NCBI GenBank assembly: GCA_027021085.1
Contig: JALUVB010000292.1
Location: 1 to 5,346, forward strand
Direction of reading: 5' to 3'
Origin: a bacterium
GTDB lineage: Bacteria > CAIJMQ01 > JAADFP01
DNA: 5,346 nt
Part shown: one piece after another, positions 1 through 5,346 of the stretch
Position numbering within the stretch: position 1 is the first letter of the stretch
Layout of the letters: each line of letters opens with the position of its first letter
Position numbers and translations under genes: made by a program
The notes under the pieces: generated by a model
What the model saw: only the letters and a program-made list of their open reading frames with translations
Told to the model about the DNA's origin: nothing
Database searches by the model: none

Positions 1-250
1 TTATATATCCCTGGAAGATAAAATAATTCTGGGATTGATGAATTTTTCCACCGACGTATACGAAGAAATTATCCTATCCCTCCCCGGGTTAGCAGGCAAA
101 AAATTTGCAGTTTTCAGGCTTAATGAAGAGGGCAAAAGGGAAGATATCAAGGATAGAGTAAAGAAAAGAGAGCTTGCAGGAGAAAAATGCTTTTCGTTGC
201 AACTGACCTTCATCCCCGCTTCCTTAAATGTGTTGATATTCGAGTTATAA
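1..250 (+). CDS. 3' end of an unidentified protein, C-terminal beta-rich domain (5' partial)
   Basis: The frame is open from the left edge (first full codon at base 2) to TAA at 248-250, so these 82 residues are the C-terminus of a longer protein. An in-frame TTG-ATG at 35-40 exists, but no good Shine-Dalgarno precedes it and the frame is open upstream, so I do not take it as a start. The visible part alternates hydrophobic and polar residues as in a small beta-sandwich (for example LGLMNFSTDVYEEIILSLPG, then KKFAVFRLNEEGK, ending VLIFEL). Similar-looking C-terminal beta domains close many glycoside hydrolases of the alpha-galactosidase/beta-galactosidase type. That comparison is only an impression, and I do not recognise the family. 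Only 16 bases separate it from the next gene, so the two are probably co-transcribed. I am confident that it is a real gene end but not of its function. Confidence 0.72.
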   Translation, partial: YISLEDKIILGLMNFSTDVYEEIILSLPGLAGKKFAVFRLNEEGKREDIKDRVKKRELAGEKCFSLQLTFIPASLNVLIFEL

Positions 251-253
251 ACC

Positions 254-260
254 AGGAGGT
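254..260 (+). promoter_or_regulatory. Shine-Dalgarno site of the propeller-PHP gene
   Basis: AGGAGGT lies six bases before the ATG at 267 and just after the stop of the preceding gene. This fixes the start of the 793-residue protein and supports translation as the second cistron of an operon. Confidence 0.85.
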
Positions 261-266
261 ATTGCC

Positions 267-2648
267 ATGAATAATTTCACGCTTACCAGCAACAAAAAAA
301 GCTCCCGGCATAATTATTCTCCCGCTATCGGGATTGACGGAAGCAACGGTATCTGGGTTGCCTGGCTCAGCCTGAATAAAGAAGGCGACGATATTTATTT
401 AAAACGGCTACAAAACAGCCAGTGGTCAGAAGAACTTAAAGTGACCGATAAACCGGGAATTATTTACCGCCCCTGCCTAGTTACCCATCCCCAGGATGGA
501 CTATGGGTTCTCTGGGTAGAAAAAACATCTGAGACCTGGAAATTATGCGGAAGAAATTACGATAGAAACGGCAATTTGAAAGGAGATTGGGAATATATAG
601 ATAAAGGCCGTTCTTATAATCTTCACTCCCATTGCGACTGCAAGGGCAACATCCACCTTGCCTGGGAGAGCCATGCAGGCGGGAAAACAGTCATCAAAAT
701 GGCTAAACTTGCAAAGGGGGATTTATCTACTCCCCGCACTATCAGTAACCCTCTTTTCAATTCCTACGATCCCTCTCTGGCCAGTGACAGCAAGGGAAAT
801 TTATGGATAGCCTACACCTCCTTTCAACAGGGAAATTACGATATCTTCTGTCGTTCCTACAGTAACGAGGATAATCTCCTGGGCAAAGAGCAAAAGGTAA
901 GCTGGATACACGGATACAGCTACTATCCAACAGTAACAGTAGATTCCCAGGATAGGATATGGTTCAGCTTTGTATCCTACGTGGGAGAATATCGTATGAA
1001 AGAACTGTTTCCCCTGGTAAAAACCGAATTACGGAAAAGACATCACTCCTTCTGGCTTAACCAGAGATACATTTATTGTGTCTGCCTGGATAAGGGCAAG
1101 TGGTATATTCCCATAAAGAAAGATGCTCCTCAACCTTCGCGCTGCACAGGTGTAGTCCCGGTACCGGAAAATGCTATTTATCCACATATAACCTTTGATT
1201 CTTCCGGGAAACTGTGGGTATTTTACCGATATTTCTGCTTTAATGAGAAAACTCCTGCCTGGCGAAGTCAAATCTCCGCTGTCTATCATAAAGGAGATAG
1301 ATGGTCTCCTCCGGCAATAGACCCGGCCGAAGAACTCCTGGGTGAGGCAGACCCCATACATTTAATGCAGGACCAGGAAGGAAAATTCTGGTATGCAGGA
1401 CAGGTAGATTACAGAAAATTTCCCGAATACTTTGAAAAAGAAAAAGGTGAGGAAATTTATCTGGATTATCTTGACCCCCAAGATATGGAAGGAAATCCCC
1501 CGGAACTTTATCCCCTGAGCAAAAGTTATACCCCGATAATGTCATCTTCCAACGCCGAGGTAAAATCTTATTTAACCCTACGGGGAAAGAGGTACCAGTT
1601 AGCCTTTGGCAATATTCATCGTCACTCCGAGATCTCGGGCTGTGACAGACCGTATAATGGCAGTTTTGACCTCCATTATCGCCACGCCCGGGATGTTATG
1701 GGAGAGAGTTTCAGTGCTCTTACAGATCACGGGACAAGTGGTGATGACCTAAACTGGCACAAAAATCTCAAGGCAATAGCAATTTACCACTCTCCCCCCT
1801 TCTTTGTGGCTATACCCAGTGTGGAATGGACAGCCTCGGAGAGAAAGGGGGTGGAGAAACTGGGGGAAAGCCTGGGACACTACAACATCCACTATTTCGG
1901 GGAAGACCGGGAAGCTGTTCCATATACGGCACGGGATTTTGGCTACAGCGATACGCCGGATAAAATCTGGCACCTTTTAGGCAGTAAAAAAGCTCTAACC
2001 ATTGTTCATCACCCGGCTGACTGGGACCACCACCACGGGTGGGACTACTACCATCCCCAATTTGAGCCGGTGGTAGAAATTTTCCAGGATTTGAGGGGCT
2101 CAGCAGAATACGGAGGATGTCCGGGCTCCACGGGATGGCGCCAGACTCCGCGGGAAGGATGCTTTGTACAGGATGCCCTGGCAAAAGGCTACAAGCTCGG
2201 CTTTATAGGGGGAGGAGACCACTTTGGCGTAGCAATGGCCGGTGTATATGCAGAAAACCTTACCCGCGTAGGAATCTTTGAAGCGCTGCAAAATAGAAGA
2301 TGCTTTGCCACTACCGGGATAAAGCTTCACATAGATTTCAGGCTAAACCAGACATTTATGGGAGAAGTGCTGCAATTGCGCAGAGAAAAAGAACGCATTC
2401 TCTATATCAAGGTAAGTGCACCCGAGAATATTCTCTCTATCACCATAGTTAGAAATAACCAGGACATTTATACCCATGCAGGTAAAAACAAAGAGGAAAA
2501 TTTTGCCTACCAGGATGCAGAACCACTAAAAAGCCTGTTGCAAACACGGGAAATAGGGGCACCATCTGTCTATTATTATTTACGCATCATCCTTGTAAAC
2601 GGCGAGATGGCCTGGGCATCTCCCATATGGATAGAAATAAACGAATAA
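267..2648 (+). CDS. Beta-propeller protein fused to a C-terminal DUF3604/PHP-like metallohydrolase domain
   Basis: This 793-residue protein has two parts. Residues about 17-378 hold seven copies of a loose Y-x-P-(x4)-D-x-x-G-x-x-W pattern, with the W position at residues 30, 80, 130 (His here), 180, 232, 317 and 375. The first four are exactly 50 residues apart, as in BNR/Asp-box-like seven-bladed propellers. Residues about 440-793 resemble PHP-superfamily hydrolases of the DUF3604 or CehA/McbA type. Candidate metal or catalytic residues are H451-x-H453, D487-H488 (TDHG), E520, H538 (GHYNIHYF), H581-H582, E604 with the following RGSAEY, and D651-H652 (GGGDHFG). The ending with NRRCFATTG and FMGEVL also fits DUF3604. 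The family predicts metal-dependent hydrolysis of a phosphoester, amide or ester bond; the substrate is unknown. The N-terminus has no hydrophobic stretch, so a cytoplasmic location is likely. It follows the preceding gene by 16 bases with a strong ribosome site. The domain assignment is fairly secure; the role is not. Confidence 0.88.
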   Translation: MNNFTLTSNKKSSRHNYSPAIGIDGSNGIWVAWLSLNKEGDDIYLKRLQNSQWSEELKVTDKPGIIYRPCLVTHPQDGLWVLWVEKTSETWKLCGRNYDRNGNLKGDWEYIDKGRSYNLHSHCDCKGNIHLAWESHAGGKTVIKMAKLAKGDLSTPRTISNPLFNSYDPSLASDSKGNLWIAYTSFQQGNYDIFCRSYSNEDNLLGKEQKVSWIHGYSYYPTVTVDSQDRIWFSFVSYVGEYRMKELFPLVKTELRKRHHSFWLNQRYIYCVCLDKGKWYIPIKKDAPQPSRCTGVVPVPENAIYPHITFDSSGKLWVFYRYFCFNEKTPAWRSQISAVYHKGDRWSPPAIDPAEELLGEADPIHLMQDQEGKFWYAGQVDYRKFPEYFEKEKGEEIYLDYLDPQDMEGNPPELYPLSKSYTPIMSSSNAEVKSYLTLRGKRYQLAFGNIHRHSEISGCDRPYNGSFDLHYRHARDVMGESFSALTDHGTSGDDLNWHKNLKAIAIYHSPPFFVAIPSVEWTASERKGVEKLGESLGHYNIHYFGEDREAVPYTARDFGYSDTPDKIWHLLGSKKALTIVHHPADWDHHHGWDYYHPQFEPVVEIFQDLRGSAEYGGCPGSTGWRQTPREGCFVQDALAKGYKLGFIGGGDHFGVAMAGVYAENLTRVGIFEALQNRRCFATTGIKLHIDFRLNQTFMGEVLQLRREKERILYIKVSAPENILSITIVRNNQDIYTHAGKNKEENFAYQDAEPLKSLLQTREIGAPSVYYYLRIILVNGEMAWASPIWIEINE

Positions 2649-2975: not shown

Positions 2976-3004
2976 TTGACAAAGACGAAAAAATGGATTA
3001 TACT
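2976..3004 (+). promoter_or_regulatory. Sigma-70-type promoter of the regulator gene
   Basis: A perfect -35 hexamer TTGACA (2976-2981) is followed by a 17-base spacer and a -10 hexamer TATACT (2999-3004), one mismatch from TATAAT. Transcription would begin near 3011, about 45 bases before the ATG of the GntR-type gene. Spacing and match are close to ideal and the placement is right, so this is a strong prediction. Confidence 0.83.
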
Positions 3005-3006
3005 TA

Positions 3007-3024
3007 TGATATAGTGATATATCA
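3007..3024 (+). promoter_or_regulatory. Candidate operator: inverted repeat over the transcription start
   Basis: TGATATA (3007-3013) and TATATCA (3018-3024) are perfect inverted arms around GTGA. The right half also contains the 10-base perfect palindrome TGATATATCA (3015-3024), so two TGATATA half-sites lie in tandem as well. The site starts just after the -10 box and covers the predicted +1, where a bound dimer would block transcription. GntR-family repressors commonly bind dyads at their own promoters, so autoregulation is the simplest reading. AT-rich sequence forms dyads easily, which lowers confidence. Confidence 0.5.
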
Positions 3025-3055: not shown

Positions 3056-4156
3056 ATGGAAGAGCTTAGATATGTCCCCAAATATATTCAGATAAAGAAA
3101 AACCTGGAGAGGCAGATTAAGCAGGGAATTTATTCTCCGGGAGACAGAATTCCAACCGAGTTTGAGCTGACGAAGATGTATGGAGTCAGCCGTATAACGG
3201 TAACCAACGCTATTAAAGAACTGGTAAATGAAGGGCTCTTAGTGCGAGCTGGGCCCAAGGGAACCTTTGTTTCTGAAATAGAGCAAAAAATAAAGTCAGA
3301 ATCTATTGCCGGGCTTCTACTTCCAGCCAGAGGGCATCTCTTCGGAGAATTTTCCCGGCATTTAGTGCAGAATCTGCATGCGGCGGACTACTACTCCTTC
3401 GTATGTGATACAAGTTTGCTGGCTCGTCATTTTAGGGAAGAGAAGAAAAAAATTCAACGTTTTTTGAGTGCTGAGTTTGGCACCCTGATTGTTGACGGGG
3501 TTTCTATTTTCCCTTTTGACTTGCTTTTGCAGAAAAAGGATATTGACAGGTTAATATTTATCTTCCGCTTTGAAACCTCGCTTTTATTCCCACAGGCCAT
3601 CAAAGTGCTGAGTGATTACGATGAGGGTGGTTATTTGGCCGTCAAGCATCTTCTTGAACTGGGACACCGGAAGATACTTGTCTGGACTTATGAGCCCCAA
3701 CCCGAACCATATTTTTACATACATTCCCTTTTAGCCGGCTGTCGGAGAGCTTTCCGGGAAAGTAGACTTGACCCTGGTGAATCGTTTTCTCTTGAAACCT
3801 ATGATCCGGAAAGGAGCAACGAGGAGAAATTAACCAAGATACTGTCGGGGCCGGATAGGCCCACGGCAATATTTGCCTTTGGTGATGTCAGGTGTGGGGA
3901 GATATTTTCCGTAGCAAGGAAATTGAATCTCTCCATCCCTGAAGACCTGGCGATTGTTGGATACTACAATACCCCCTGGTGTGAGAAATTTGATGTACCT
4001 TTAACCTCGATATCAGTGGAAGAAGAAAGCATGGTTAAGGTGGTGAGATATATACTGGAAGATAAGATGGATTTTGCTGCAGGAGAGACGATTCTTATAA
4101 AACCGAAGATAGCTGTGCGTTCCTCCTGTGGAGCGGATAAATCGAGGAAGAAATAA
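3056..4156 (+). CDS. GntR-family transcriptional regulator with LacI/GalR-like ligand-binding domain
   Basis: This 366-residue protein has a GntR-type winged helix-turn-helix at about residues 8-72. Signature elements are PGDRIPTE (28-35), the recognition-helix region [15 protein letters not shown] (42-56), EGLL (59-62) and the wing ending in GTFV (69-72). From about residue 80 it resembles the periplasmic-binding-protein fold of LacI/GalR regulators. [17 protein letters not shown] occurs near residues 191-207, PTAIFAFGD at 269-277 and [10 protein letters not shown] at 294-303, followed by [12 protein letters not shown]. This is the arrangement of AraR-like sugar-responsive repressors and the length fits. 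The ligand is probably a sugar, but its identity cannot be read. The ATG is preceded by AAAGGTGGGG (3042-3051 region) and by a near-consensus promoter with a dyad over the start site, suggesting autoregulation. The pseudopilin gene follows 98 bases after its stop and may be co-transcribed. Confidence 0.93.
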
Positions 4157-4177
4157 GAAAGGAGGTGAGAAAGATTA

Positions 4178-4213
4178 GAAACTTGAAATCACAAGCTCTA
4201 AACTCTAAAGGAT
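4178..4213 (+). repeat. Degenerate 7-base-period tract in the pilin leader (RAAACTY type)
   Basis: GAAACTT (4178), GAAATCA (4185), an 8-base unit CAAGCTCT (4192), AAACTCT (4200) and AAAGGAT (4207) follow each other with a near-constant 7-base step. The unit resembles the ARACTTT tract at 2706-2733. It is short and imperfect, and I include it because three such tracts occur in this window, all in non-coding DNA. Confidence 0.42.
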
Positions 4214-4215
4214 TA

Positions 4216-4236
4216 TCTCCGGTGTTGCATCGGAGA
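4216..4236 (+). promoter_or_regulatory. Strong hairpin just upstream of the pilin ribosome-binding site
   Basis: TCTCCGGTG (4216-4224) pairs with CATCGGAGA (4228-4236) over a three-base TTG loop: 9 pairs with one G-U. No T run follows, so it is not a standard terminator. TCTCC (4216-4220) could instead pair with GGAGG (4243-4247) of the ribosome site, with one G-U, so two exclusive folds are possible: one leaves the ribosome site free and one covers it. Whether this controls translation is inference. Confidence 0.5.
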
Positions 4237-4254
4237 AAAGAAGGAGGTGTAACG

Positions 4255-4983
4255 ATGTTAGGAAAAATTAGAAAAACCTGGGGTTTAAGAGGAGGGTTCA
4301 CGCTGATAGAGCTATTGGTGGTTGTAGCCATCATAGCAATACTGGCAGCCATGCTGCTGCCCGCTTTGCAGAAGGCCAGGGAGAAAGCCAGGAGGGCCGT
4401 GTGCATGAACAACTTGAAGCAGATAGGTCTGGGGCTCTACATGTACTCCATTGACTACAAGGGGTGGATAAGGATAGGCAATCAGGATGGAGCAGACTGG
4501 CGACCACCTCGATATCGTTCTCCCTTATGGGTGCTGGTAAAAGGGAACGGCACAATTCCCGCCTATGACCCAAATCAACCCGGATACCTATCCATAACAT
4601 TCCCTGGTTTATTCAGCTGTCCGAGTGCCTATCCCAAAGATTACTCACATTATATAACCCAGCGTTATGTAACATATCTTGGGCGACCTATACAAGGTAG
4701 TGGTAATTCTGGCTCCCCGCTCGAAGGGGTAAATGACTATGCCGGGACAGGAGGCTACACCTCGTTGGGATACATAATGCTCAAAAAATATCCTAACAGG
4801 GCCTTATTTGCCGATATGTTCACCTGGAGAAATCCGCACGGGGACGGGGTAAACGTGCTTTACGGTGATGGAAGTGCCAAATGGTATCCGGACAAGGACC
4901 ATGAATTCCCTCTCGCCTTAAATGGTAAAAGAGGTTACACGTATATCAACGCGACCTGGGAAAAAATGGATAATAACCGGTAG
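4255..4983 (+). CDS. Prepilin-type pseudopilin-like protein with H-X9-DG motif
   Basis: This 242-residue protein starts at the ATG seven bases after GGAGG (4243-4247). It has a short basic leader ending in RGG, a prepilin peptidase site G14|F15, the conserved E at mature position 5 (E19, in [19 protein letters not shown]) and the single N-terminal helix of class III (type IV pilin/type II secretion) signal sequences. A charged amphipathic stretch ([20 protein letters not shown]) follows, then a globular C-terminal part. Near the C-terminus H195, nine residues and D205-G206 form the H-X9-DG motif typical of the large pseudopilin-like families (DUF1559-related) expanded in Planctomycetota and Lentisphaerota. 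Those proteins are expected to be inserted in the inner membrane, processed by a PilD-type peptidase and displayed at the surface; no secretion machinery is seen here. Its position right after a sugar-type regulator suggests a substrate-related surface role, but that is inference. Confidence 0.9.
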
Positions 4984-5056: not shown

Positions 5057-5346
5057 GTGGATAGATTGTTAAAAGGGTTATTCTTATCAGTCGGTGTATT
5101 TGTTTTCTTTGCGGGATTACCTTCCTATGCAGGAGAATACTCGCTCCCGGTAATCAGCATCAGCAGGACCAAGGCCCCGCCGGTGATAGACGGGAAAATG
5201 ACCCCGGGGGAGTGGGACCAGGCAAGCGGGGTAACCGGGTTCTTGGACCTTTACGGCAAACTTGTCTCGCATCAGACTTTTGTCTATGTTACCTACGATG
5301 ATAAGAAGCTTTACTTTGCCTTCCAGTATCCCTTTCCCGGAAATCT
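5057..5346 (+). CDS. Secreted protein with CBM9-like domain (3' partial)
   Basis: The frame opens with GTG at 5057, five bases after AAGGAGG (5045-5051), and stays open to the right edge (96 full codons). Residues 1-25 are a classic signal peptide: basic start (DRLLK), hydrophobic core (about 8-21) and a likely signal-peptidase site S-Y-A|G after residue 25. The mature part opens like the family 9 carbohydrate-binding fold (CBM9-like): PPVIDGKMTPGEWDQA (41-56) matches the usual IDG-x(3-4)-EW-x-x-A element and VYVTYDDKKLYFAFQ (76-90) matches the v-x-v-a-y-D-d-x-x-L-Y-f-a element. Proteins of this kind are exported and bind sugars, alone or fused to enzymes, so the missing C-terminal part may hold more domains. 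It follows the pilin gene behind a terminator-like hairpin. The start is secure; the full function cannot be judged from this fragment. Confidence 0.85.
   Translation, partial: MDRLLKGLFLSVGVFVFFAGLPSYAGEYSLPVISISRTKAPPVIDGKMTPGEWDQASGVTGFLDLYGKLVSHQTFVYVTYDDKKLYFAFQYPFPGN

Follow-up and report, generated by a model that had tools for sequence, protein, structure and literature searches.

The stretch of DNA analysed here, 5,346 nucleotides from a bacterial contig and referred to below as the window, carries a gene for a protein in which a regular series of repeats precedes a putative PHP-type metallohydrolase. An earlier note, made from the letters alone, read the repeats as a seven-bladed β-propeller, the second half as a DUF3604-like enzyme and the pairing of the two as a novel fusion. 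The locus thus raises the questions of whether this architecture is real, whether it is peculiar to this genome and what reaction such a protein would be expected to catalyze.

The gene and its surroundings

Direct reading of the frame confirmed the coordinates 267-2648 that had been proposed for the gene: it begins with an ATG at 267, ends with a stop codon at 2646-2648 and encodes 793 amino acids with no internal stops. The following features were assigned to the gene, its domains and the adjacent regions.

2..250, forward strand: 3' end of an upstream open reading frame (82 aa, truncated at the contig boundary), with its stop codon 16 bp before the ATG at 267
254..260, forward strand: Shine-Dalgarno-like AGGAGGT ahead of this ATG, read from the sequence
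267..2648, forward strand: propeller-PHP-Ig protein, 793 aa, without a signal peptide
267..1490, forward strand: seven-bladed β-propeller, residues ~1-408 (AlphaFold2 model, VIA-align, Pfam Reg_prop)
986..1055, forward strand: low-confidence insertion in blade 5, residues ~241-263 (pLDDT below 50 at 241-251 and 260-263)
1569..2315, forward strand: PHP-type metallohydrolase domain, residues ~435-683 (model, ligand alignment)
2316..2645, forward strand: Ig/Fn3-like β-sandwich, residues ~684-793 (VIA-align Z ~9 to CbhA Fn3 and SoxYZ)
2976..3024, forward strand: sigma-70-like promoter TTGACA-17-TATACT (11 of 12 matches) with an inverted repeat
3056..4156, forward strand: regulator of 366 aa with a GntR-type HTH and a LacI-type sugar sensor (Pfam GntR 65 bits, Peripla_BP_3 72 bits)

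The upstream open reading frame had no family match above cut-off and, apart from the strain copy described below, no homologue in the seven genomes of the phylum. As 16 bp separate its stop codon from the ATG at which the propeller-PHP gene begins, the two are probably co-transcribed. The GntR/LacI-type regulator is tied to the propeller-PHP gene by proximity only, because it has a promoter-like site of its own; the number of such sites in the window is not above that in shuffled sequences. Just past the promoter-like -10 element and 5' of the regulator gene lies the inverted repeat TGATATA-GTGA-TATATCA (3007-3024), a possible operator through which the regulator may control its own expression. 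Further downstream, the window encodes a pseudopilin-like protein (4165-4983) with an N-terminal methylation motif, a DUF1559 domain and a C-terminal H-X9-DG motif; such proteins are expanded in Planctomycetes, Lentisphaerae and similar bacteria. The last open reading frame (5057-5344) runs off the contig and covers the N-terminal portion of a secreted protein, which by eye resembles a CBM9/DOMON-type domain and had no Pfam match.

Another contig, C37, shares its starting base with the window and is 98.1% identical to it across its 3679 bases. We considered the presence of two gene copies in one genome and rejected it, as C37 fits a strain variant of the metagenome assembly. In the propeller-PHP gene, the two versions differ by 29 synonymous and 19 non-synonymous changes, and the resulting dN/dS of ~0.18 between strain copies indicates that the protein is under purifying selection.

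Domain architecture and its distribution

The full-length AlphaFold2 model, built with 40 relatives (pLDDT 85, pTM 0.89), has seven consecutive four-stranded blades that form a closed ring at residues ~1-408, as the earlier note had supposed. The seven repeat residues that it had picked out (30, 80, 130, 180, 232, 317 and 375; W W H W W W W) are real features of the fold and largely conserved in relatives, each falling on the second strand of one of the seven consecutive blades (29-36, 78-86, 129-137, 178-187, 231-239, 316-326 and 374-380). The motif [GD]x(0,1)[ILF][WH] followed by one of VILFYS is found eight times in residues 1-405 (the seven positions listed and 365), whereas 5000 shuffles averaged 0.44 occurrences and never exceeded 4; this comparison serves as a check and not as a blind test, the motif having been composed after the repeats were seen. 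Pfam Reg_prop matches the protein with 34.2 bits (cut-off 20.4). Low model confidence is mainly confined to the blade 5 insertion, where the other aligned propeller-PHP proteins have a gap, and to a few loops.

In VIA-align searches with residues 1-408, solved seven-bladed propellers were matched with Z scores of 28-33, the best being CylK (Z 33), followed by PLL lectins (Z ~30), BT3686/BACCELL_00856 of the GH145 type (Z ~29) and the L-Rha-α-1,4-GlcA lyase (Z 28.5); PL25 ulvan lyase matched with Z 26. Since BT3686/BACCELL_00856, the L-Rha-α-1,4-GlcA lyase, PL25 and CylK are all catalytic, one might suspect that the propeller is itself an active domain (of GH145/PL42, PL25 or sialidase type) and the protein a two-headed enzyme that combines a lyase or glycosidase with an ester hydrolase. 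We regard this as very improbable: the non-catalytic PLL lectins match equally well, propellers are alike whatever their function, and the residues that are near-invariant in 36 relatives (W83, W133, P169, W232, G314, R321 and W346) mostly look structural, R321 apart, which makes a second active site in this domain less likely. No conserved acid or histidine pair was found in the propeller among these 36 relatives.

The second half of the protein, modelled separately (residues 428-793, pLDDT 89, pTM 0.91), belongs to the PHP superfamily by fold: VIA-align returned 3E38 (Z 20.2 over 220 residues, 3.1 Å) and TM0559 (Z 19.2), with EndoQ, RNase AM and PolIII PHP domains as further, lower matches. 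A single-sequence PDB search with the window protein gave nothing useful; with a profile built from 42 relatives, 3E38 was retrieved at an E-value of 4.6e-9, with the HxH, E, GH, H and D motifs aligned. The Pfam PHP model (PF02811) had no match to the window protein at E ≤ 1 and matched a single one of 40 relatives. Membership in DUF3604 (PF12228) is supported by 29.2 bits against a gathering cut-off of 20.4, and 38 of 40 full-length relatives match this model at E ≤ 0.01. The CehA/McbA model (NF038032) aligns with residues 481-790, that is, with the catalytic and C-terminal domains (E 5.5e-17), and its 62.1 bits are below the cut-off of 80, so that the protein appears to be related to the CehA/McbA family and is not filed as a member. 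The earlier note was therefore right about the PHP/DUF3604-type fold and its coordinates but left unsplit what are two domains, as the catalytic part ends at ~683 and the remainder forms an Ig/Fn3-like domain of its own. The latter ends in a conserved YYYxRxxxxxxxMAWxSPIW motif, and Y770, R773, W783, S785, P786 and W788 are near-invariant columns.

We scanned 84,980 species genomes for this architecture. About 70 of the best 80 loci match both domains in a single open reading frame (residues ~10-790, 23-29% identity) and come from at least a dozen phyla, including Acidobacteriota, Sumerlaeota, Planctomycetota, Verrucomicrobiota, Kiritimatiellota, KSB1, Calditrichota, Ignavibacteriota, Nitrospinota, Armatimonadota, Myxococcota, Actinomycetota, Hydrogenedentota and others. 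In the phylum of genome G018, at least 18 of 40 genomes contain a long match. In the window's own phylum, the propeller-PHP protein is encoded by one of seven genomes, that of the window; a genus mate has PHP proteins without a propeller. The idea of a novel fusion must therefore be abandoned, the pairing being common in many bacterial phyla. It has nonetheless gone uncharacterised as far as open-access text is concerned, where no functional study of a propeller-PHP protein was found and DUF3604 is mentioned only incidentally. Uncultured bacteria that live in soil and sediment or in association with sponges commonly encode propeller-PHP proteins, which are often annotated just as DUF3604 or hypothetical.

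In the phylogenetic tree, the two propeller clades are separated by other PHP proteins, but a single propeller clade is not rejected (p-AU 0.22), so that the two domains may have been fused either once or twice independently. A viral origin was considered and rejected: the patterns used retrieved no relatives from IMG/VR, no PHROG was found, and phages provided one weak partial match. An Armatimonadota genome carries two propeller-PHP genes in tandem (L056 4999-10004). Many Acidobacteriota members of the DH type described below (L057, L060, L068, L077, L080 and similar) have ~150 extra residues between the signal peptide and the propeller.

The metal site and two types of PHP domain

The trinuclear site of No-PDE and 3E38 is formed by the α ligands H61, H63 and D260, the bridging E135, the β ligands H142 and H203, and the γ ligands D68, H93 and H262 (PMC11656708). 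The equivalents in the window protein are H451, H453 and D651 (α), E520 (bridge), H538 and H581 (β) and H488 (γ). The position of the canonical γ aspartate (458) is occupied by glycine and that of the γ histidine (653) by phenylalanine, with H652 directly adjoining D651. Among 67 family members, H451, H488, E520, H581, E604 and D651 are conserved in all, H453 in 65, H538 in 64 and D487 in 52 (with glutamate in the other 15), so that each residue of the α/β set (HxH, Glu, His, His, Asp), which aligns with that of 3E38, is kept in 64-67 of the 67. H652 is kept only in the 48 proteins of the DH subtype; the other 19 have D-x-H with the histidine one residue later, which is the spacing of PHP enzymes of known structure. 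All ten residues that had been proposed as metal ligands are thus present and largely conserved, but D487 and E604 do not belong to the nine-ligand set given for No-PDE/3E38 (PMC11656708) and H652 is a feature of the DH proteins only. Of the trinuclear γ ligands (the Asp of HxHxxxSD, the His of TDH and the His of DxH), the window protein retains just H488.

The γ aspartate is missing in 46 of the 48 DH proteins and present in 18 of the 19 DxH proteins. Two types can thus be told apart in the family: 'SDG + DxH', which is canonical, and 'DH', to which the window protein belongs. In the tree of PHP parts, the DH propeller proteins form one starred clade, which includes the window protein among its 25 propeller-bearing members, and the DxH propeller proteins form another, both with strong support. 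Because each type with a propeller is grouped in its own clade, the DH/DxH divide probably reflects one ancient event and not repeated ones; as the tree suggests a single change, the Fisher p-value of the association with the γ aspartate is not taken as evidence for repeated events.

With two of the three γ ligands lost or shifted, the metal centre of the DH type has probably been remodelled and is predicted from the ligand pattern to be either binuclear or equipped with a rebuilt third site. If so, it would offer a testable case of a PHP site in which the number of metals, and perhaps the chemistry, has changed. The change of two out of nine classical ligands might also be taken as a sign of degeneration, the domain serving as a non-hydrolytic metal-binding scaffold or sensor, as do some PolIII PHP domains. 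Such a loss of activity seems highly unlikely, given that the other seven ligands are conserved in the DH subtype, that the changed pattern is itself maintained in many different phyla (48 of 67 members are of the DH type) and that the strain copies are under purifying selection. A more far-reaching possibility, which we consider rather unlikely, is that the DH propeller-PHP proteins constitute a separate enzyme class, in which a trinuclear phosphoesterase centre has become binuclear or rebuilt and catalyzes a different reaction, such as the removal of carbamoyl, acyl or sulfo-type esters from glycans, with the propeller as part of the substrate site.

Predicted function and relation to known systems

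Most of the relatives whose N-termini were inspected carry a Sec, lipoprotein-like or TAT leader. According to the same signal-peptide calls, made by eye, the window protein, the Hydrogenedentota protein of L119 and a homologue from Cetobacterium somerae have none; the frame of the window gene is open for just ten codons upstream of the ATG at 267. The C. somerae protein (WP_330112106.1, 746 aa, 23% identical, DxH type) is likewise cytosolic, and its gene is located 24 bp behind one for a glycoside-pentoside-hexuronide (GPH):cation symporter, with a Crp/Fnr regulator nearby. On plasmid p1 of this fish gut isolate, the Crp/Fnr, GPH symporter and propeller-PHP genes form an apparent operon (L141 6637-11052).

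Propeller-less PHP genes in the window's genome and genus have GH38, GH2, GH29, GH35, GH78, sulfatase, PIG-L and URO-D-family genes as neighbours. The URO-D-family genes adjoin PHP genes at L137, L138 and L140, three contigs from this genome and genus, and in the Hydrogenedentota genome (L119) such a gene is found 10 bp behind the propeller-PHP gene. One of the PHP paralogues (L137 5827-6534, G000:C19), located between sulfatase and URO-D genes, is a 236-aa open reading frame that lacks the HxH motif and the N-terminal part and is probably a broken gene. No conserved neighbourhood of the propeller-PHP family was found in the genes adjoining the relatives, where only scattered TonB-receptor-like, sulfatase, PIG-L and β-lactamase-like genes occur, and no glycan enzyme was seen in the window itself. 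Taken together, the sugar-type regulator, the GPH symporter of C. somerae and the PHP paralogues among glycosidase and sulfatase genes point to glycan catabolism, although none of these lines is strong alone. The cytosolic versions beside a sugar symporter or a sugar-type regulator provide a first hint of the substrate class, for which C. somerae represents a culturable test organism.

These contexts also bear on whether the protein might instead be a phosphoesterase or phosphodiesterase unrelated to glycans, acting for example on nucleotides, lipids or phosphonate-type compounds. The fold neighbours 3E38, TM0559, PsfC, EndoQ and RNase AM all act, or are presumed to act, as phosphoesterases or nucleases, and Sb-PDE and No-PDE, relatives of 3E38, are phosphodiesterases (PMC11656708, PMC5460133). 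However, the DH subtype departs from those enzymes in its γ ligands and the PHP genes of the window's genome and genus are surrounded by carbohydrate genes, so we see this alternative as unlikely, if still to be reckoned with.

With moderate confidence, we propose that the window protein is a cytoplasmic metallohydrolase of a widespread and uncharacterised DUF3604/CehA-like PHP subfamily, which removes an ester-type group from a glycan-derived substrate after its import; the propeller would shape access to the active site. In such an enzyme, two metals would be held by H451, H453 and D651 (α) and by E520, H538 and H581 (bridge and β), and a metal-activated water would attack an ester-type bond, which may be a phosphodiester, phosphomonoester, carbamate or carboxylate ester. 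The third (γ) site, having lost its aspartate and had its histidine moved by one residue, is probably absent or rebuilt, which would make the protein a two-metal or possibly a three-metal hydrolase. The propeller, seemingly non-catalytic, most likely covers or extends the mouth of the active site and selects the substrate, and the likely setting is the intracellular processing of an imported glycan-derived compound.

Among known systems, DUF3604 (PF12228) accommodates the window protein and most of its relatives above the gathering cut-off, but the match is limited to residues 656-691 and the Pfam model does not include a propeller. The carbaryl and carbofuran hydrolases CehA and McbA (NF038032), which have essential histidines in their PHP-like part (PMC8292978), resemble the window protein across the catalytic and C-terminal domains, whereas the window protein falls below the family cut-off and has DH instead of DxH; the absence of CehA from the PDB search matches says nothing on its fold. 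BVU_3505 (3E38) and Sb-PDE/No-PDE provide the closest solved PHP fold, with aligned α and β ligands, but they have no propeller and possess an intact trinuclear site including D68, H93 and H262 (PMC11656708), of whose γ part the window protein has only the H93-equivalent histidine in place. The C-terminal propeller of CylK, the PLL/PHL lectins and the GH145-type enzymes share the seven-bladed fold (Z 28-33) but have 9-13% identity and no PHP domain, and a common fold does not amount to a common function. The proteins of Sumerlaeota, Acidobacteriota, other bacteria (L054-L132) and C. somerae share the three-part architecture over their full length at 22-29% identity; in contrast to the window protein, most of those inspected carry a leader, and the Sumerlaeota and Cetobacterium members are of the DxH type.
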